Assembly (NCBI GenBank): GCA_026196795.1
Contig: JAPHUE010000074.1
Coordinates: 1 to 47,164 of the forward strand
Direction of reading: 5' to 3'
Origin: Sedimenticola sp.
GTDB lineage: Bacteria > Pseudomonadota > Gammaproteobacteria > Chromatiales > Chromatiaceae
Length of the DNA stretch: 47,164 nt
The notes below the pieces were generated by a model that saw nothing but the letters and a program-made list of their open reading frames with translations, was not told the DNA's origin and ran no database searches. Numbering within the stretch: position 1 is the stretch's first letter; each line of letters starts with the position of its first letter. Below, one piece after another: positions 5,523 to 16,651 of the stretch. The position numbers and the translations under genes are program-made.

Positions 5523-7505
5523 TCAGTTGGCGGCCTTTTTGGCAGAGACCAGCTTAGGCTTTGGGCGTTGCTGGCTATCCAAAGGCGCGCTTGCATTCAG
5601 TGTCGTGTGGATGTTGCGCAGAATGGTTAACTGCTTGGCGACAGCATTGTGCTGATTTTTCAGCTCATTGACCCGGGATTCCAGTGTGTCACGTGAACGG
5701 CTGATTTTTTGTAAATCGAACAGCCGTCTTTCCATCAGCTCTTTATGCTCTCGGATCTGAAATGTAAGTGGCTCCAAAGCCGTGCTGAGCCATGTATCCA
5801 CTTCCTGTCTGGCCTGAAAAAAGATGTCTCGGGCGCGACTGACCATGGCAACAAAGAAGCGTTTAACCACGAAATGCTTCTCGGTCATGGCGGTTACCGG
5901 GCTCTTACGAAAAATCTCTGCCTCTTGATAGAGCATCTCCAGCTCTACTCGGTAGCGCATAATTGAGAACATCTTCGGATGGGCTGCCGAGAAGCCGTGC
6001 TCATTCTGAAACCGTCGATAAATACTTCGAATCAACTTTCTGGCTTGCTCACTCTGGTCCACAACAATCTGCATGTTGCTGCGCATGTCATCGAACAGAG
6101 AGCGCATATTGGATTGCAGGCCCAGTGTGGTCCAGTTATCGGCCATTTTATTGTGCGCGGCGTTTATTGAGCGTTCCAGCTTCTTAAGATCAAGCGCCTC
6201 TCTGAGTGTGGTGGCCTGATCCTTGAGAATTTTGCGGCTGGCCTGAAAGCTGTTGACATTACGCATATACTCCGCTTGTTCATTGCGGGTTTTTGCCATC
6301 ATGTGCTCAATCATGTCCTGGCTTTTCCCGCTCAGCTGACGCAATTCATCCAGTTGAGATTGAATGCCGTTTAGCTTGGTTACCACAATGCTGCGGGTGC
6401 TCTCAACCATCTGGCTGATTTCGGCCGTGATGGTATCCTTTATGATCTCCTGTCGTGAATCGAGAATGTCATTGGAGAGGTAATGTTCGAGGTCCATCAG
6501 TCGGCTCTGTGCCATCAGATCGCTGTCTTGCTTGATCTTGGCCAGCAGTCCCTTATGGGCTGAAACAGGAAATATGGCATTGCGACTGACGCCAAGAATC
6601 TGAGCGGTGTGATTGCACTGGCGGTTAATGGCGCTATCAATACTCTCTTGATCCTGCAGTTCATCCCATAGGGTATCGATCTTATTCAATACGACCATCA
6701 GACCGCGTTGACGGCTGCGGTGAAAGCCCTTAATGTGGTTTTGCCACATCTCAAGATCGCTACGAGTGACACCCGCATCTGCACCTAGCACAAACAGCAC
6801 TGCCTGAGCTGAGGGTAGCATTTTCAGGGTTAATTCCGGCTCGCTGCCCAAGGCGTTCAAGCCTGGGGTGTCGAGGATCGTCAGTCCCTGTTTCAGCAGT
6901 GGATGAGGAAAGCTGATCATGGCGTGTCGCCACTTCGGGATGTCAACAAAATCGGGTGGTTTGCTCTGGTTTGGATGTTGTTGCGGGTCATACATGCCCA
7001 GGCGCACAGCCTCGGCCAGGGTGACCTTGCGTGTCTTGATCACCTCTTGCAGGCAATCCTCTACTTGATCAACGGAATCCAGATCCAATGGGTAGGTGAC
7101 CCAAAGCGCAGGTTTTTTCTTCAGTTCACGAATACCGGTGTCCTGAAGACGGGTCTCAATCGGTAGTAACCTGACATAGGCTTGGTCGGCTTTTTGATCA
7201 TAGAACAGCTCGGTGGGACACATGGTGGTCCGGCCAGCGGTTGATGGGAGCAGACGACGGCCAAAATCTGAGAAGAAGATGGCATTGATCAGTTCAGTCT
7301 TTCCCCGTGAGAATTCCGCTACAAAGGCAATGGTGAGTCGATCGCTGTAGAGCGAGGCGAGACATTCACGAATGCGCTTTTCACTTTCATCGGTAGCCAG
7401 GTGGTGCTTGCTCAACCAGCTGAAATAGAGTTTTACCGTGCGGATTATATCGGCCTTCCACTGCTCATAGGCCTTGAGCTGACTCTCCAGACGCGATTGT
7501 TCCAC
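5523..7505 (-). CDS. Dynamin-family large GTPase
   Basis: The 660-residue product has an N-terminal dynamin-type GTPase domain: G1 loop VAEFSRGKTEL at about 62-72, a G2-like threonine pair in AGRTTMCPTE at about 90-100, G3 in LDTPGLNALG near 212, and G4 in VLNKIDTLWD near 272. The rest is mostly helical and charged, with coiled-coil character (about 360-640), as in bacterial dynamin-like proteins that remodel or repair membranes. No transmembrane segment is obvious. The start is GTG with an AAGGAAA Shine-Dalgarno. Nothing in the neighbourhood defines its target. Confidence 0.88.
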   Translation of the reverse strand: MEQSRLESQLKAYEQWKADIIRTVKLYFSWLSKHHLATDESEKRIRECLASLYSDRLTIAFVAEFSRGKTELINAIFFSDFGRRLLPSTAGRTTMCPTELFYDQKADQAYVRLLPIETRLQDTGIRELKKKPALWVTYPLDLDSVDQVEDCLQEVIKTRKVTLAEAVRLGMYDPQQHPNQSKPPDFVDIPKWRHAMISFPHPLLKQGLTILDTPGLNALGSEPELTLKMLPSAQAVLFVLGADAGVTRSDLEMWQNHIKGFHRSRQRGLMVVLNKIDTLWDELQDQESIDSAINRQCNHTAQILGVSRNAIFPVSAHKGLLAKIKQDSDLMAQSRLMDLEHYLSNDILDSRQEIIKDTITAEISQMVESTRSIVVTKLNGIQSQLDELRQLSGKSQDMIEHMMAKTRNEQAEYMRNVNSFQASRKILKDQATTLREALDLKKLERSINAAHNKMADNWTTLGLQSNMRSLFDDMRSNMQIVVDQSEQARKLIRSIYRRFQNEHGFSAAHPKMFSIMRYRVELEMLYQEAEIFRKSPVTAMTEKHFVVKRFFVAMVSRARDIFFQARQEVDTWLSTALEPLTFQIREHKELMERRLFDLQKISRSRDTLESRVNELKNQHNAVAKQLTILRNIHTTLNASAPLDSQQRPKPKLVSAKKAAN

Positions 7506-10110: not shown

Positions 10111-10302
10111 GATCTTGGTTGGCCTGTGTGTCTATAATAGAGTGTAGTGGATGGCTATGGCTGTTCTGCTATTAAAACAAAAAACGTCAGTTTCCCCAAT
10201 TGCGGTCGCTATCCGTTCAGGGAGATACGCAGGATTGCCTACAGTTTGGAAGGGGTGCTGACATGTTGGACATTAATAACACAATAACGGGAGATGGGGT
10301 GT

Positions 10303-11340
10303 ATGGATATTGCTGAGCTTCTTGCCTTTAGCGTCAAGCATGAGGCCTCAGACTTGCACATTTCGGCGGGGTTGCCGCCAATGATCCGGGTAGATGGTGA
10401 TATTCGCAGGATCAATGTGCCAGCGCTGGATCATAAGGTCGTACATGCTTTGGTGTATGACATCATGAATGACAAGCAGCGGAAAGATTATGAGGAGTTC
10501 CTGGAGACAGACTTCTCATTTGAGATTCCCGGGCTTGCCAGGTTTCGTGTCAATGCATTCAATCAGGATCGGGGTGCCTCTGCGGTATTTCGTACCATTC
10601 CGGCCAAGGTGCTGACCCTGGAGGACTTGGGTTGTCCCGAGACTTTTAAAGATATTGTGAATGTCCCCCGAGGACTGGTGTTAGTGACCGGCCCTACGGG
10701 TTCAGGTAAATCCACCACGCTTGCAGCGATGATGGATTACAAGAATGATACTGAGTATGGTCATATTCTCACTATTGAGGATCCGATCGAATTTGTTCAC
10801 ACCAGCAAGAAGTGTCTGATCAATCAGCGTGAGGTACACCGGGATACTCTGGGCTTCTCTGAAGCGTTGCGTTCGGCACTGCGTGAAGATCCTGATATCA
10901 TTCTGGTAGGTGAGTTACGTGATCTGGAGACCATACGACTGGCGCTGACAGCAGCAGAGACGGGGCATCTGGTGTTTGGTACCTTGCATACCAGCTCGGC
11001 TGCGAAAACTATCGACCGTATTATTGATGTGTTTCCTGCGGGTGAGAAATCCATGGTTCGCTCCATGCTCTCTGAGTCTCTTCGGTCAGTTATTGCACAA
11101 ACCTTGATGAAGAAGGTTGGCGGTGGTCGAACAGCTGCTTGGGAGATCATGGTGGGTACGCCAGCTATTCGAAACCTGATTCGTGAGGATAAGGTTGCCC
11201 AGATGTACTCTGCCATTCAGACGGGTCAGGCTACGGGCATGCAGACCCTTGATCAGCATCTTCAGGAGCTGGTGAAAAAAGGTATGATCAGCCGGTTGGA
11301 TGCGCGGATGAAGGCTGCCAATAAAGAGATTTTCTCTTGA
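10303..11340 (+). CDS. pilT: Type IV pilus retraction ATPase PilT
   Basis: PilT is the hexameric motor ATPase that depolymerises the pilus and powers twitching. The 345-residue product has an N-terminal PAS-like domain (ASDLHISAGLPP), Walker A GPTGSGKST, the Asp box TIEDPIEF, Walker B DIILVGELRD, a His box, and the C-terminal retraction motif AIRNLIRE. An in-frame ATG three codons earlier exists, but MDIAELLAFS is the conserved start. The 192-base gap to the divergent yggS gene should hold both promoters. Confidence 0.98.
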   Translation: MDIAELLAFSVKHEASDLHISAGLPPMIRVDGDIRRINVPALDHKVVHALVYDIMNDKQRKDYEEFLETDFSFEIPGLARFRVNAFNQDRGASAVFRTIPAKVLTLEDLGCPETFKDIVNVPRGLVLVTGPTGSGKSTTLAAMMDYKNDTEYGHILTIEDPIEFVHTSKKCLINQREVHRDTLGFSEALRSALREDPDIILVGELRDLETIRLALTAAETGHLVFGTLHTSSAAKTIDRIIDVFPAGEKSMVRSMLSESLRSVIAQTLMKKVGGGRTAAWEIMVGTPAIRNLIREDKVAQMYSAIQTGQATGMQTLDQHLQELVKKGMISRLDARMKAANKEIFS

Positions 11341-11388
11341 TGCAGATGTAGCTAATGGAACCGACAAACGTTCGGTAGCGAGGGAAAT

Positions 11389-12513
11389 GTGGACTTTAAT
11401 GCACTATTGAACCTGATGGCCCAGAAAAAGGCCTCTGATCTTTTTATAACCGCGGGTATGCCGCCCTGTATCAAGGTCAATGGCCGGATCATGCCGGTTG
11501 CAAAGAGTAAATTCAATGATGAGCAGGCGCGGGATCTGGTCATTGGTCTGATGTCACCTGCCCAGCGGGAAGAGTTTACCCAGACCAATGAATGCAACTT
11601 TGCCGTGAGCTCCAAAGGGGCGGGGCGTTTCCGTGTCAGTGCCTTTGTGCAGCGTGATTCGGTTGGCATGGTGTTACGGCGGATCGAGACCCGTATCCCG
11701 GAAATACAGGATCTGTTGTTACCACCGATCCTGAAAGAGTTGGCGCTTGCCAAACGGGGCATGGTGATCTTTGCTGGTGCCACAGGCACCGGCAAATCTA
11801 CCTCTTTGGCATCCCTTGTTGGCTATCGTAACCGTAACAGTTCGGGTCACATTATCACCATCGAAGACCCAATAGAGTTTATTCATAATCATGATGGTTG
11901 CATCATTACCCAGCGCGAAGTGGGAATCGACACTGAGTCCTATCAGGTTGCATTAAAGAACACCCTCCGGCAGGCACCTGATGTGATTCTCATTGGTGAG
12001 ATCAGGACCCGTGAGACAATGGATCATGCCATTGCGTTTGCCGAGACGGGGCATCTGGTGTTGTCCACGTTACATGCCAATAATGCCAACCAGGCGCTGG
12101 ATCGTATTATCAACTTCTTCCCGGAAGATCGACGAGATCAGGTGTTCATGGACCTCTCGCTCAATCTGCGCGCTATCGTGGCTCAGCAGCTGGTCAGGCG
12201 GCCGGATGGAAAGAGTCGGCGGCCGGTAGTAGAGACGCTCATTAACACCCCACTGGCGGCGGATTTGATCCGTAAGGGTGAGGTGCATAAGCTGAAGGAG
12301 CTGATGAAACGCTCAACAGAGCAGGGGATGATGACCTTCGATCAAGCACTCTATAAGCTCTACACTGAGGGCGAGATCACCTATGAGGATGCCATTCTGC
12401 ATGCCGATTCAGCCAATGAAGTTCGCTTAATGATCAAGCTGGGGGGTACGGATGCGGAACGCTATGCGGCACGCATGAATACCGTCACCTTGCTGGATCA
12501 GGAAGAGATGTAG
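11389..12513 (+). CDS. pilU: PilT-dependent retraction ATPase PilU
   Basis: PilU works with PilT to give high-force retraction of type IV pili. The 374-residue product shows Walker A GATGTGKST, Asp box TIEDPIEF, Walker B DVILIGEIRT and the PilU-like C-terminus with TPLAADLIRKGEVH in place of the PilT AIRNLIRE motif. The start is GTG at 11389 with a GAGGGA Shine-Dalgarno directly before it. It follows pilT by 48 bases and should be co-transcribed. Confidence 0.97.
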   Translation: MDFNALLNLMAQKKASDLFITAGMPPCIKVNGRIMPVAKSKFNDEQARDLVIGLMSPAQREEFTQTNECNFAVSSKGAGRFRVSAFVQRDSVGMVLRRIETRIPEIQDLLLPPILKELALAKRGMVIFAGATGTGKSTSLASLVGYRNRNSSGHIITIEDPIEFIHNHDGCIITQREVGIDTESYQVALKNTLRQAPDVILIGEIRTRETMDHAIAFAETGHLVLSTLHANNANQALDRIINFFPEDRRDQVFMDLSLNLRAIVAQQLVRRPDGKSRRPVVETLINTPLAADLIRKGEVHKLKELMKRSTEQGMMTFDQALYKLYTEGEITYEDAILHADSANEVRLMIKLGGTDAERYAARMNTVTLLDQEEM

Positions 12514-12555: not shown

Positions 12556-13434
12556 TTAGACTGGAAAAACCGCGCGCGAATCGAATACGGGGCCATCCAC
12601 ACAGACGCGCTTCATAGCGGGTCCGGCCTCCGTTGCAACTTCTACAACACACCCGGCACAACCCCCCACGCCACAGGCCATGAACTCTTCAAGTGATACC
12701 TGGCAGGGCAGATCAAACTCGGCTGCCAGTTTTGCGACACTCTCCAGCATGGGATGGGGGCCACAGGAGAAGATTTCCACTTCACTGCGTTGTTCGGCAG
12801 AGAGATTATTCAGCCAGTGTCGGGCCAGGTCGGTCACATAGCCTTCAAAGCAGCCCGGAAATCCCTGCAGGCTGGCCAGTCGACTGGGGATTTGCCACTC
12901 ATCAAGTAACGGCATACTGGCAATGACATCCTGGGGCATTTCCGGTGTGAGAATGCTGGAGGGGTGCGGTTTAAAGGGGAAGGGAACTTCAGATCCCAGA
13001 ATCACCATCGGGTGGTACTCTTTCTCGCCCGCCAGACTCTGGGCAATAAATACCATGGGTGGCATGCCGACCCCACCACCGATCAACAGGGGTCTGGAGC
13101 GTTCAGGGTGCAGTACGAAGGGCTCTCCAATGGGGCCCATGATACTCAACTGCTCGCCTTTCTTTCTTTGTGCCAGCAAACGGGTGCCTTCACCCACCGC
13201 CTTGTAGAGAAACTCAACCCAGCCCTCTTTAGCTGAGGTGCGCATGATGGATATGGGCCGACGTAAGGGTTTTGCACGATCGCACTGAATATGGGCGAAA
13301 CTGCCGGGCAGGGCTTTTTCGGCACACAGAGGGGCATGGACGCGGAGAATATACTGCTCTCCCTCATAGGCTTCGTGAAAGAGAATCTCGGTCTCTTCTA
13401 AATAAATGGTGTCACGATGGGCTTTTGTGGTCAT
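12556..13434 (-). CDS. PyrK-like dihydroorotate dehydrogenase electron-transfer subunit
   Basis: The 292-residue product is a ferredoxin-reductase-type flavoprotein. The FAD-binding RRPISIM motif is near residue 58, an NAD-binding glycine loop LLIGGGVGMPP lies in the middle, and the SCGPHPML motif follows. The C-terminal cluster segment is CGVGGCAGC plus a later VCVDGPVF, which gives the four cysteines of the PyrK-type [2Fe-2S] site. In class 1B enzymes PyrK passes electrons from PyrD to NAD. No pyrD is in this window, so the partner is unknown. It lies 8 bases after pyrC' and ends the operon. Another reductase role is possible. Confidence 0.82.
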   Translation of the reverse strand: MTTKAHRDTIYLEETEILFHEAYEGEQYILRVHAPLCAEKALPGSFAHIQCDRAKPLRRPISIMRTSAKEGWVEFLYKAVGEGTRLLAQRKKGEQLSIMGPIGEPFVLHPERSRPLLIGGGVGMPPMVFIAQSLAGEKEYHPMVILGSEVPFPFKPHPSSILTPEMPQDVIASMPLLDEWQIPSRLASLQGFPGCFEGYVTDLARHWLNNLSAEQRSEVEIFSCGPHPMLESVAKLAAEFDLPCQVSLEEFMACGVGGCAGCVVEVATEAGPAMKRVCVDGPVFDSRAVFPV

Positions 13435-13442
13435 ATCTGGTA

Positions 13443-14747
13443 TTACGCTACGGTTGAAGTGTCAGAGTTAAAGACAATACGGCCTTCAAACAGGGTGTGT
13501 GTCACTTTTCCCTGGAACTCCCAGCCAATAAAGGGGGTATTGCGTCCTGCACCCGGGATTTCATCTTTTTTCAATACCCAGTGCTCCTCCGGGTCAAATA
13601 TGCAGATATCGGCGCTACTTCCTGCATGCAATCGACCGTAGGGGAGATCCAGGATGTCGGCTGGACCGCAGGTGATTCGTGCTATCGCATCTGATAGCGG
13701 AAGCACTCCTTCATCCACTAGCTTGAGGGTCAGCGGCAAGAGTGTCTGCAGACCTGACATTCCGGTCATTGTAGAAGGGAAGGGGGCCTCTTTGGCGTCA
13801 TCTTTGAGTGGTTGATGGTCAGAGCAGATGGCGCCAATAACCCCTTTAGCCAGGGCGATGCGAAGTGCCTCTCTATCGGCCAGACTGCGTAGTGGTGGAT
13901 TGAGGTGGCAGTTGCTGTCGAAATCCTCAATATCCATCTCAGTAAGGTGCAGTTGATGGGCGGCGACATTGGCAGAGACGGGTAGTCTTTGGTGCTGTGC
14001 CTGCTCGATCATACGTGTGGCAGTGCCGCTAGAGAGTAAATGGAAATGAATGCGGCAGCCGGTGTGTTCCGCGAGGGCCAGATCGCGGGCTACGGCAACC
14101 GATTCAGCGGCCTCAGGGATGCCGGGTAAGCCCAGTCGGGCACTGACGGGGCCCTCGTGGGCGTAACCGTTGTTACGAAGGTGACGGTCTTCCGGGCGCA
14201 GGATGGCCGTGATACCGAAGGTGGCGGCATACTCCAGTGCTCGGCGCTCGACAAGTGTATTGGCCAGTGGGGCGTAGCCGTTGCTCATGGCAACACAGCC
14301 GGCCCGTTTCAGTGCGACCATCTCGCTCAGGTGCTCGCCTGCCAGCTTTTGCGTCATAGCACCGATTGGGAGGAGGCGTGCTTTGGCTGCCCGTTTGGCT
14401 CGACGTAGAATCAAGGTTACTACGGCGGGTGTATCAATCACCGGGTCAGTATCTGGTGGGCAACAGAGGGTGGTAATTCCCGCCTTGGCGGCCGCACTGG
14501 TCTCGCTGCTGATGGTGGCGATATGTTCATCGCCGGGCTCGCGTAGACGTACGCTAAGATCCACCAGCCCTGGGCAGACGATCTTTCCTGCGGCATCAAT
14601 TGTATGTTGAGGGGTGAAGCTGTCAGGTCGATCACCCACGGAGAGGATCTTGCCGTTATGGATGAACAGGTCGGTGATTTGATCAATGCCATTGGCGGGA
14701 TCAATGACTCGACCGCCGAGGATCTGAATAGTGGTACTTGCACTCAT
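13443..14747 (-). CDS. Dihydroorotase-like protein PyrC' (probably catalytically inactive, PyrB partner)
   Basis: The 434-residue product is an amidohydrolase-fold dihydroorotase homologue. Active enzymes have a metal-binding HxHxR after the first strand. Here the equivalent is S65-V66-R67-L68-R69 in [10 protein letters not shown], so both histidines are missing. D and H near SDHQPL and H in [10 protein letters not shown] are retained. In Pseudomonas such inactive PyrC' proteins are needed to assemble the aspartate carbamoyltransferase complex. The gene overlaps pyrB by 4 bases (ATGA), as expected for partners. A working dihydroorotase must be encoded elsewhere. Confidence 0.9.
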
Positions 14748-15721
14748 CGTCCGGCAGCTCCCTGGGCCTGGGTTCCCATGGTCATCGACATCACCGCCAT
14801 TCTGACAGCGATACCAAAACTGACTTGTTGCAGGATCACTGAACGGGGGCCGTCAGCGACTTGTGAGTCCATCTCGACGCCCCGATTGATTGGTCCAGGA
14901 TGCATGACAATGACGTCAGGCTTGGCGGCCCTTAAACGTTTTTCTGTTAGACCATATAGCTGGAAATATTCATGCTCACTGGGGAGTAGTGCACCTGTCA
15001 TACGCTCCTTTTGAAGGCGTAGCATGATGATGACGTCAACATCTTTGATGCCCTCTTCCAGATCATGGAAGACATGCACACCCATTGTGCGTGGATCAGA
15101 GGGCAGTAAGGTGCGTGGTGCAATGACCCGAACCTCTGATGTACCGAGGGTGTTCAGTGCCAGAATCTGGGAGCGGGCAACCCGTGAGTGCAGGATGTCA
15201 CCGACAATGGCCACCCGAAGTCCGGTGAATTCACCTTTGTGACGACGTATCGTGAACATGTCGAGCATGGCCTGTGTGGGGTGGGCATGCTGTCCGTCGC
15301 CGGCATTGATCACGCTGATATGGGGCGCGCTGTGTGTGGCAAAAAAGTGCGCTGCACCACTGTCTGAATGGCGAATAACAAACATGTCAACATGCATCGC
15401 TTCAAGATTACGCAGTGTATCAAGCAGGGTCTCACCTTTGGTGGTGGATGAGGTGCTGACATTCAGATTGAGCACGTCTGCGGAGAGCCGCTTGGCGGCT
15501 ACTTCAAACGTGGTACGGGTGCGCGTGCTGTTCTCAAAAAACAGGTTGCATATTGTTTTTCCACGGAGGAGCGGGACTTTTTTTACTACCCGTTCTGAAA
15601 CGCCGGTGAAGGATTCGGCTGTATCCAGAATTTCATTCAGCATCTCTCGCTTCAGGCCATCTATAGTGAGGAAATGCTTGAGTCTGCCGTTATTGTCGAG
15701 TTGGATGTTGGGCTTGCTCAC
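14744..15721 (-). CDS. pyrB: Aspartate carbamoyltransferase catalytic subunit PyrB
   Basis: PyrB joins carbamoyl phosphate and aspartate, the first committed step of pyrimidine synthesis. The 325-residue product has the carbamoyl-phosphate loop STRTRTTF (65-72), the [14 protein letters not shown] motif and the [11 protein letters not shown] segment. It is flanked by pyrR upstream (4-base overlap) and pyrC' downstream (4-base overlap). No pyrI regulatory subunit gene is present, which fits the Pseudomonas-type PyrB-PyrC' enzyme. Confidence 0.98.
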
Positions 15722-16242
15722 GATGTTCCCCTGGTCTCCTGTTTTGAGGTGCCAATAATCAGATTGAGTGGATCAGGACCCGTCAGTGTTATTTGTTGTT
15801 CGTTGGTGAGTGGCGGGCGCACTCCGACTACACTGGGCTGTATGGGTAGTTCACGGCCACTGCGTTCAACCAATGTCGCCAGTATTATGGAAGCGGGACG
15901 GCCATAATCAAATATCTCATTCATCGCGGCGCGGATGGTTCGACCAGTTTGCAGTACGTCATCTACCAGAATAATGTGGCGATCTTCAACTTCAAAGGGT
16001 ATCTGTGAGGGCTTGACCTTGGGGTTCATGCCAATCCGGGTGAAGTCATCCCGATAAAATGAGATGTCCAGGGTGCCGAGGGGTTGCTCGATATGGAGTA
16101 GTTTGTGTAGGCGTTCAGCCAGCCAGACGCCACCGGTATGTATGCCGATCATGACAGGGTCTGTAGCTTGTTGTACCTCAAGGCGTGTCTTGATGGCTTG
16201 TACCATCTCAGTGATGAGACCATCAATCGCCTCAGACTGCAT
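15718..16242 (-). CDS. pyrR: PyrR-like bifunctional regulator / uracil phosphoribosyltransferase
   Basis: The product (174 residues from the ATG chosen here) is a type I phosphoribosyltransferase of the PyrR family, with the PRPP motif [16 protein letters not shown] and the [14 protein letters not shown] segment. PyrR can regulate pyr genes and has uracil phosphoribosyltransferase activity. An upstream in-frame GTG at 16263 would overlap ruvX by 14 bases; the ATG at 16242 leaves a 7-base gap and has an AAGAGA about 12 bases before it. It overlaps pyrB by 4 bases. I see no attenuator in the operon, so RNA-based control is unproven. Confidence 0.93.
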
Positions 16243-16249
16243 GTAGGGT

Positions 16250-16651
16250 TTATTCTCTTTCACTTAACCAGGTTTCCAGGATTAGTTTAGCTGCCATAGC
16301 ATCAAGTTCTTCAAAGTTCTTAGGCGCCCGCCCCAGCTCCTGTCGTGCTATCTGGGAGGTGAGTCGTTCGTCACTCATATGAACGGGTAATCGATAGCGC
16401 CCTTCCAGTTGTCTGGCAAAGCGGCGTGCCAGTGGAGCGACCTCGGTCTCCTTGTCATCCATGTCAAACGGTAAGCCAACCACCAGGGCTTCAGGCTGCC
16501 AGTTCTCAATCAGCTGACTGATCTTTGCCCAGTCCGGCTTCTGTTGCAACGCGCGAAGTGTGACAAGCGGTGTGGCGGTGCCGGTCAGCGTCTGACCTAC
16601 AGCGATACCGATTTTTTTCGTGCCGTAGTCAAAACCCAGTAGTGTACCCAT
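16250..16651 (-). CDS. ruvX: Pre-16S rRNA 5'-end nuclease YqgF/RuvX
   Basis: The 133-residue product has the RNase H-like YqgF fold: GFDYGTKKIGIAVG at residues 6-19 with the first catalytic aspartate (D8), VVGLPFDMD, SDERLTSQIA, and a late aspartate in DAMAAKLIL. YqgF takes part in 16S rRNA 5'-end maturation and has been called a Holliday-junction resolvase homologue. It lies 19 bases after algH and just before pyrR, the order known in Pseudomonas. Confidence 0.95.
   Translation of the reverse strand: MGTLLGFDYGTKKIGIAVGQTLTGTATPLVTLRALQQKPDWAKISQLIENWQPEALVVGLPFDMDDKETEVAPLARRFARQLEGRYRLPVHMSDERLTSQIARQELGRAPKNFEELDAMAAKLILETWLSERE

Follow-up and report, generated by a model that had tools for sequence, protein, structure and literature searches.

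A pyrK gene closing an aspartate carbamoyltransferase operon very probably serves a class 1B dihydroorotate dehydrogenase whose pyrD lies elsewhere in the genome

The last gene of a pyrimidine operon in the window (the whole stretch of DNA analysed, a contig of 47,164 nucleotides from a Sedimenticola-like MAG) almost certainly encodes PyrK, the electron-transfer subunit of a class 1B dihydroorotate dehydrogenase, with the pyrD gene sited elsewhere in the genome. The identification rests on homology, cofactor motifs, fold, the presence of a partner in the same genome and a near-complete co-occurrence of the two subunits. The earlier note on this DNA had offered two interpretations, namely that the lineage has a class 1B enzyme encoded elsewhere, or that the subunit has been reused with PyrB-PyrC' or some other partner, and this two-way interpretation is partly supported by what follows.

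The pyrK reading frame occupies exactly the positions first given for it, 12556-13434, lies on the minus strand, runs from ATG to stop and encodes 292 amino acids with FAD, NAD and [2Fe-2S] motifs all in place. Sequence and alignment conservation place the FAD-binding RRPIS motif at residues 58-62 (13249-13263, minus strand), the glycine motif of the NAD domain, GGGVGMPP, at residues 119-126 (13057-13080, minus strand) and a CGP motif at residues 224-226. The cysteines of the [2Fe-2S] cluster (12601-12675, minus strand), which are supported by sequence, alignment and Pfam, have the spacing C254-x4-C259-x2-C262-x15-C278, i.e. CX4CX2CX15C near the C terminus, and the corresponding Pfam domain (PF10418, DHODB [2Fe-2S] domain) scores 54.7 bits against a cut-off of 23.9. 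Alignments also point to residues 149-206 (12817-12990, minus strand) as a stretch with an insert relative to the PyrK of Lactococcus lactis. The NCBIfam PyrK models match the protein, the best at 1.2e-39, but it fails their equivalog cut-off, with 135.9 bits for the best model against the 314 required. That cut-off is a threshold for annotation and naming and no defining property of the enzyme, whereas all the defining properties that could be tested are present (the C-terminal [2Fe-2S] motif, FNR-like FAD and NAD domains with RxPxS and glycine motifs, and a class 1B PyrD in the same genome), and we therefore retain the name PyrK. With a score so far under the equivalog cut-off, the class of the protein may be overlooked in automatic annotation.

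Among solved structures, those closest in sequence are PyrK chains of dihydroorotate dehydrogenase B (5ksw and 1ep1-1ep3, of which 1ep1 is titled Lactococcus lactis). An AlphaFold model of the window protein (pLDDT 88.7, pTM 0.89) has its best structural match in 5ksw_B (Z 28.4, rmsd 2.4 A over 252 aligned residues); as an NfnI subunit, 5jca_S, scores virtually the same (Z 28.1), fold alone leaves the family undecided. Three comparisons with the window gene gave dN/dS values of 0.04-0.07 for intact PyrK, indicating strong purifying selection. Among the matches listed for the protein, which may leave out records of the window's own genome, the best six are Sedimenticola MAGs and strains, at 91% down to 78% identity.

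The gene run in the window reads yqgE-ruvX-pyrR-pyrB-pyrC'-pyrK, the names of the last four coming from model searches and the other gene names in the window having been read from the sequence. On the minus strand, ruvX (yqgF; 16250-16651) is the first gene of the overlapping run and is followed by pyrR, a pyrimidine operon regulator/uracil phosphoribosyltransferase (15718-16263), pyrB, the catalytic subunit of aspartate carbamoyltransferase (ATCase; 14744-15721), and pyrC', a dihydroorotase-like subunit (13443-14747) that ends 8 bases before pyrK. The profile models identify pyrC' as dihydroorotase-like, and the HxH metal motif is missing from its usual place, which we take to be the mark of an inactive protein; pyrC' is thus probably the inactive pseudo-dihydroorotase of a class A2 ATCase. 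Because the run ends with pyrK, whose stop codon is separated by 42 bases from the end of a convergent pilU-like gene, pyrD is not adjacent, in agreement with the initial description of pyrK as the end of a pyr operon. The convergent genes (pilT- and pilU-like, window 10294-12513) are not peculiar to this contig, as pilT or pilU adjoins pyr genes in many of the loci examined. Elsewhere in the window, an ORF of 660 residues (5523-7505, minus strand) has a P-loop-like stretch and reads like a dynamin-type GTPase.

The genome to which the window belongs (2.77 Mb in 294 contigs, 78.4% complete) contains a single detectable PyrD, at bases 1-969 of another contig, C154. This protein of 322 residues is of class 1B: it scores 372.8 bits with NF005574 (cut-off 269) and 326.5 bits with TIGR01037 (cut-off 270), fails the class 2 model TIGR01036 (70.1 bits, cut-off 200), and has class 1B PyrD chains (5ue9 and 1ep1) as its closest solved sequences. 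A profile search of the same 78.4% complete assembly found no class 2 pyrD. The first of the two alternatives offered earlier is thereby borne out, and as far as the gene itself is concerned we have the outcome that had been named as reducing it to an ordinary but split pair. C154 starts at the start codon of pyrD and could in principle have been mis-binned; its neighbourhood, however, resembles that of pyrD in relatives, which argues against this. Going by gene names read from sequence, here and for the other pyrD loci, C154 also carries ntrC, ntrB and glnA, and the pyrD genes of two other genomes (G043 and G048) lie near gpsA, a trmL-type methyltransferase gene and ntrC, with glnA present as well in G043. 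Among the loci examined, class 1B pyrD was seen near gpsA in L161, L163, L205, L206 and L207, near the trmL-type methyltransferase gene in L161, L163, L205 and L206, near ntrC in L161, L163 and L164, and near glnA in L163, L164 and L207.

By analogy with the Lactococcus enzyme, PyrD, with its FMN, would oxidise dihydroorotate, the electrons would then pass via the [2Fe-2S] cluster and the FAD of PyrK, and NAD+, the likely acceptor, would be reduced at the end of the chain. In this lineage pyrK closes the ATCase operon and pyrD occupies another chromosomal place, and the two products would be expected to associate. Such an enzyme may be advantageous with a reduced quinone pool or little oxygen, which would fit a low-oxygen, sulfur-oxidising life. 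In the known enzyme, as outlined in a section of a published account, PyrDB carries FMN, PyrK carries FAD and one [2Fe-2S] cluster, and electrons go from dihydroorotate to NAD+; PyrDB is apparently required for insertion of the PyrK cluster and is destabilised without PyrK (PMC8097209). The quinone-independent L. lactis pyrK-pyrDB was proposed for low-oxygen growth of Pseudomonas putida and expressed there, and the parts of that report concerned with it describe the strain with pyrK-pyrDB alone as underperforming (PMC6805499).

Two samples of genomes, which share members, were used to follow PyrK and the PyrD classes; both cover related genomes, so that the counts are of non-independent events. 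The larger consists of 232 genomes, 231 of them drawn evenly from Gammaproteobacteria at a completeness of at least 90%, plus the window's own. Here 107 genomes have class 1B PyrD, 100 have class 2, none has both and 25 have neither. The premise that gammaproteobacteria usually rely on the class 2 enzyme is accordingly half right, being true of 100 genomes but not of the 107 with class 1B, and the assumption that Gammaproteobacteria make orotate mainly via the quinone-linked enzyme needs correcting. The frequency of the NAD-linked type bears on pyrimidine synthesis in anaerobic and symbiotic sulfur oxidisers. In the open literature searched, we found nothing on PyrK in gammaproteobacteria or on the distribution of class 1B in Proteobacteria.

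The co-occurrence check that had been proposed came out clearly: full PyrK tracks class 1B PyrD, being present in 102/107 class 1B genomes as opposed to 0/100 class 2 genomes, with one more in a genome of neither class (G176). These counts include two copies that are broken in the match, one in two pieces (G061) and one ending at a contig end (G264). The smaller sample (the window genome and relatives, 55 genomes) gave the same picture, with class 1B above cut-off in 32 genomes and class 2 in 16. A strong PyrK match was found in 32/32 of the former, the weakest at 3.2e-28, whereas 15 of the 16 class 2 genomes had no PyrK match better than 7.1e-16, a value reached by one of the weaker flavoprotein matches seen in some class 2 genomes (G022); the sixteenth, G054, has a PyrK copy without any of the cofactor motifs looked for. 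Intact PyrK in the company of neither PyrD class, as seen in G005 (65% complete), G021 (89%) and G176 (92%), probably reflects assembly gaps, although this is not proven. Five genomes (G020, G038, G049, G051 and G053) have neither a strong PyrK nor a PyrD above cut-off, G038 showing a partial class 2 match.

Conversely, five of the 107 class 1B genomes have no intact PyrK, the absence of which is therefore compatible with a class 1B PyrD. A recheck with PF10418 found no match in four of them (G070, G078, G084 and G206), while in the fifth, G094, PyrK is reduced to its first part, which occurs at either end of a single contig in what looks like a mirrored assembly. In G070 and G078 the class 1B PyrD is above cut-off (L207, 4146-5087, and L208, 3145-4092, respectively) and the PyrK iron-sulfur domain went undetected genome-wide. 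In G206 and G084, the converse of the usual pattern was observed, i.e. a cofactor-less PyrK homologue behind pyrC' in a class 1B genome (L204, 4259-5035, and L243, 4516-5238).

The home of pyrK in Gammaproteobacteria is usually the ATCase operon, which explains its separation from pyrD. In a set of 119 loci, which includes loci of cofactor-less homologues and repeat records of some genomes, pyrC' lies on the same strand as pyrK or its homologue in 106, and in 91 of these the distance is at most 100 bases when measured from the aligned start, several pairs overlapping. The other 13 loci show no pyrC' within the available stretch, which in three of them leaves less than 400 bases of room. Where a genome with intact PyrK has no strong PyrC', pyrK directly follows pyrB in 8/10 cases (the exceptions being G128 and G234). 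On single contigs, pyrK and pyrD are about 634 kb apart in G004 and about 659 kb apart in the single-contig genome G052, and in 15 genomes of the larger sample in which both genes could be read by eye on one contig, the smallest distance is about 14 kb (G125); where the genes are on different contigs, they could still adjoin across a contig end. A gene fusion was also looked for, and no reading frame in the 119 loci matched both PyrC' and PyrK; the frames of at least 700 residues that surround PyrK in several search rows are taken simply to lack a stop codon further upstream.

The new element here is a group of cofactor-less relatives of PyrK. Profile searching and reading of the loci revealed an open frame homologous to PyrK without the [2Fe-2S] domain in 19/232 genomes from 14 family codes; 16 of these genomes have class 2 PyrD, two have class 1B (G206 and G084) and one has neither (G133). 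We refer to these frames as remnants. They are profile matches down to 9.5e-13, each read in its locus, and their number may be an underestimate, since weaker matches (4.8e-9 and up, many of them frames of other sizes) were taken as other flavoproteins. They are PyrK homologues, not PyrK members, as they fail the [2Fe-2S], FAD and NAD motifs: the mean share of strongly conserved columns kept by the 19 is 0.05 in the Fe-S domain, 0.05 at RRPxS, 0.26 at GGG and 0.28 at CGP. In contrast, they keep 0.61 of such columns within residues 149-206 (n 18) versus 0.33 elsewhere before the Fe-S domain (n 61; p 2.5e-4, kinship ignored), and P153, P158 and R185 (window PyrK numbering) are retained in 19/19. 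Some remnant frames start inside or after an over-long start, so that their N termini are uncertain, and no Pfam family above cut-off was found in any of the 10 remnants scanned. The same-strand upstream neighbour is pyrC' in 15/19, closely so in 14, while in G146 about 1 kb, including a frame on the opposite strand, separates the two. Elsewhere, the remnant stands beside pilU with pyrB-pyrC' at another place (G054 and G185), between ruvX and yggS (G229), or apart (G133).

Remnants probably arose several times. A tree of PyrC' was built from 54 rows, 37 from genomes with full PyrK and 17 from remnant genomes (out of the 19). Mapping the remnant label onto it takes 10 changes, of which well supported branches force at least four; the bootstrap had not converged, 27/50 inner branches are open and G230 is a long branch. 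As each change on the tree may stand for either gain or loss, repeated independent truncation is likely rather than proven. Three congeneric pairs gave remnant dN/dS values of 0.19, 0.19 and 0.13, far under 1 and indicative of purifying selection, and the one remnant modelled (G215, pLDDT 93.5) keeps the two-domain ferredoxin-reductase fold, with a Z near 23 for 5ksw_B and other reductases alike.

How, then, do these observations bear on the partner of PyrK? That the intact window protein serves a redox partner other than PyrD is very improbable. Such a partner would accord with pyrK being encoded away from pyrD, with the greater length of the window protein compared with Lactococcus PyrK, and with the fact that relatives of PyrK also serve NfnI-type enzymes and sulfhydrogenases (going by the molecule names of structure matches), but the near-complete co-occurrence with class 1B PyrD speaks against it, as does the lack of any intact copy in class 2 genomes. 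The second of the alternatives offered earlier, reuse with PyrB-PyrC' or another partner, gains no direct support from the intact protein; a second, ATCase-linked role beside the redox role is nevertheless plausible, because cofactor-less relatives are kept behind pyrB-pyrC' in class 2 genomes. PyrK might then be bifunctional, also docking on the ATCase (PyrB or PyrB-PyrC') near residues 149-206 and so linking steps 2 and 4 of the pathway; once a class 2 PyrD had taken over, the redox half would decay and the docking half would stay. We put this forward tentatively, as an addition compatible with the redox role and somewhat short of an even chance, and the contact through residues 149-206 is a hypothesis drawn from sequence. 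Besides the class distribution, signature loss, position and low dN/dS (0.13-0.19) of the remnants, the several changes on the PyrC' tree and the better conservation of residues 149-206, it is favoured by the placement of pyrK right after pyrB where strong PyrC' is missing, and among class 2 genomes by a remnant in 15/67 with strong PyrC' versus 1/33 without (p 0.018, kinship ignored). Intact PyrKs from genomes without strong PyrC' are also less conserved in residues 149-206 relative to the rest of the protein (p 0.004, 61 versus 10, kinship ignored), in a comparison of 71 of the 103 full PyrKs, chosen by availability and including all 10 without PyrC'; by eye, the stretch is altered in 7/10 of the latter (in G183 in part). 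Yet G050, G071 and G197 keep the motif without strong PyrC', although with pyrB adjacent, and conversely much of it is lost despite PyrC' in G118, G073, G046, G164 and G263 and partly in G043, i.e. in six of the nine PyrC'-bearing rows inspected, which were low scorers or odd cases from the 61. Other observations weigh against docking as well: the remnant of G133 has no PyrC' or PyrB match in its genome and that of G229 only distant ones, the remnants of G054 and G185 are unlinked to pyrB-pyrC', no remnant was detected in 52/67 of the class 2 genomes with PyrC', and fusions are missing from the 119 loci. Locally stronger constraint on residues 149-206 in remnants was considered and rejected, since nonsynonymous change there was not significantly lower (p 0.13, three pairs pooled); synonymous change is higher in the stretch (p 0.018), which makes the lower pooled ratio poor evidence.

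Alternatively, the remnants may be gradually degenerating relics of a class 1B system since lost, preserved for the time being by operon position or solely by selection for fold stability, with no new role, an explanation that we regard as possible and rather doubtful. Selection on remnants is indeed relaxed when compared with intact PyrK (dN/dS 0.13-0.19 versus 0.04-0.07) and with the neighbouring pyrC', pyrB and pilU (0.03-0.08), and 84/100 class 2 genomes have no detected remnant. On the other side, the reading frames have stayed open despite high synonymous divergence (dS 0.4-2.2), the model of one remnant is confidently folded, and members of 14 family codes still share a motif after the several losses suggested by the tree. 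A still bolder proposal, on balance unlikely, is that gammaproteobacterial PyrK is physically part of the ATCase assembly, where it would link carbamoyl-aspartate synthesis to NAD+-dependent dihydroorotate oxidation, and that in lineages with quinone-linked PyrD it would repeatedly have lost its cofactors and persisted as an ATCase subunit that has escaped recognition. The cofactor-less relatives provide a direct, testable lead to a possible hidden subunit or regulator of class A ATCase.

On the operon side, the known counterpart is the Pseudomonas aeruginosa class A2 ATCase, composed of PyrB and an inactive pseudo-dihydroorotase, which the window pyrB-pyrC' appears to resemble. That complex is described as built from two kinds of subunit only, which counts against a docked PyrK, and PyrK is unmentioned in its introduction and in the main text as covered by a term search (PMC7053772). 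The open literature searched yielded nothing on pseudo-dihydroorotase with aspartate transcarbamoylase, and nothing on point about a bacterial metabolon of both enzymes, the phylogeny of class 1B and class 2, or pyrimidine work in Riftia.

On the redox side, the FAD-NAD subunit of NfnI/sulfide dehydrogenase (5JCA and 4YLF) shares its domain fold with window PyrK (Z 28.1 and 26.6). Its partner in NfnI, according to a passage of PMC8097209, is a GltD-like subunit, whereas the genomic context of window PyrK is pyrimidine synthesis. The closest likeness is to the L. lactis enzyme (1EP1-1EP3, 5KSW), with which the window protein shares the FAD, NAD and C-terminal [2Fe-2S] domains, in order and in fold, and whose class 1B PyrD also has its equivalent in the window genome. 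It differs in having about 25 extra residues in the NAD domain, with 70 residues between two aligned segments where L. lactis PyrK has 45, and in gene position, since window pyrK stands behind pyrB-pyrC' and not beside pyrD, while in Lactococcus pyrK and pyrD are adjacent. This adjacency is supported by the wording "pyrK-pyrDB cluster" in a passage of PMC6805499. The window pyrK thus represents a known type of enzyme in an unusual but widespread gene arrangement, with an extra stretch.
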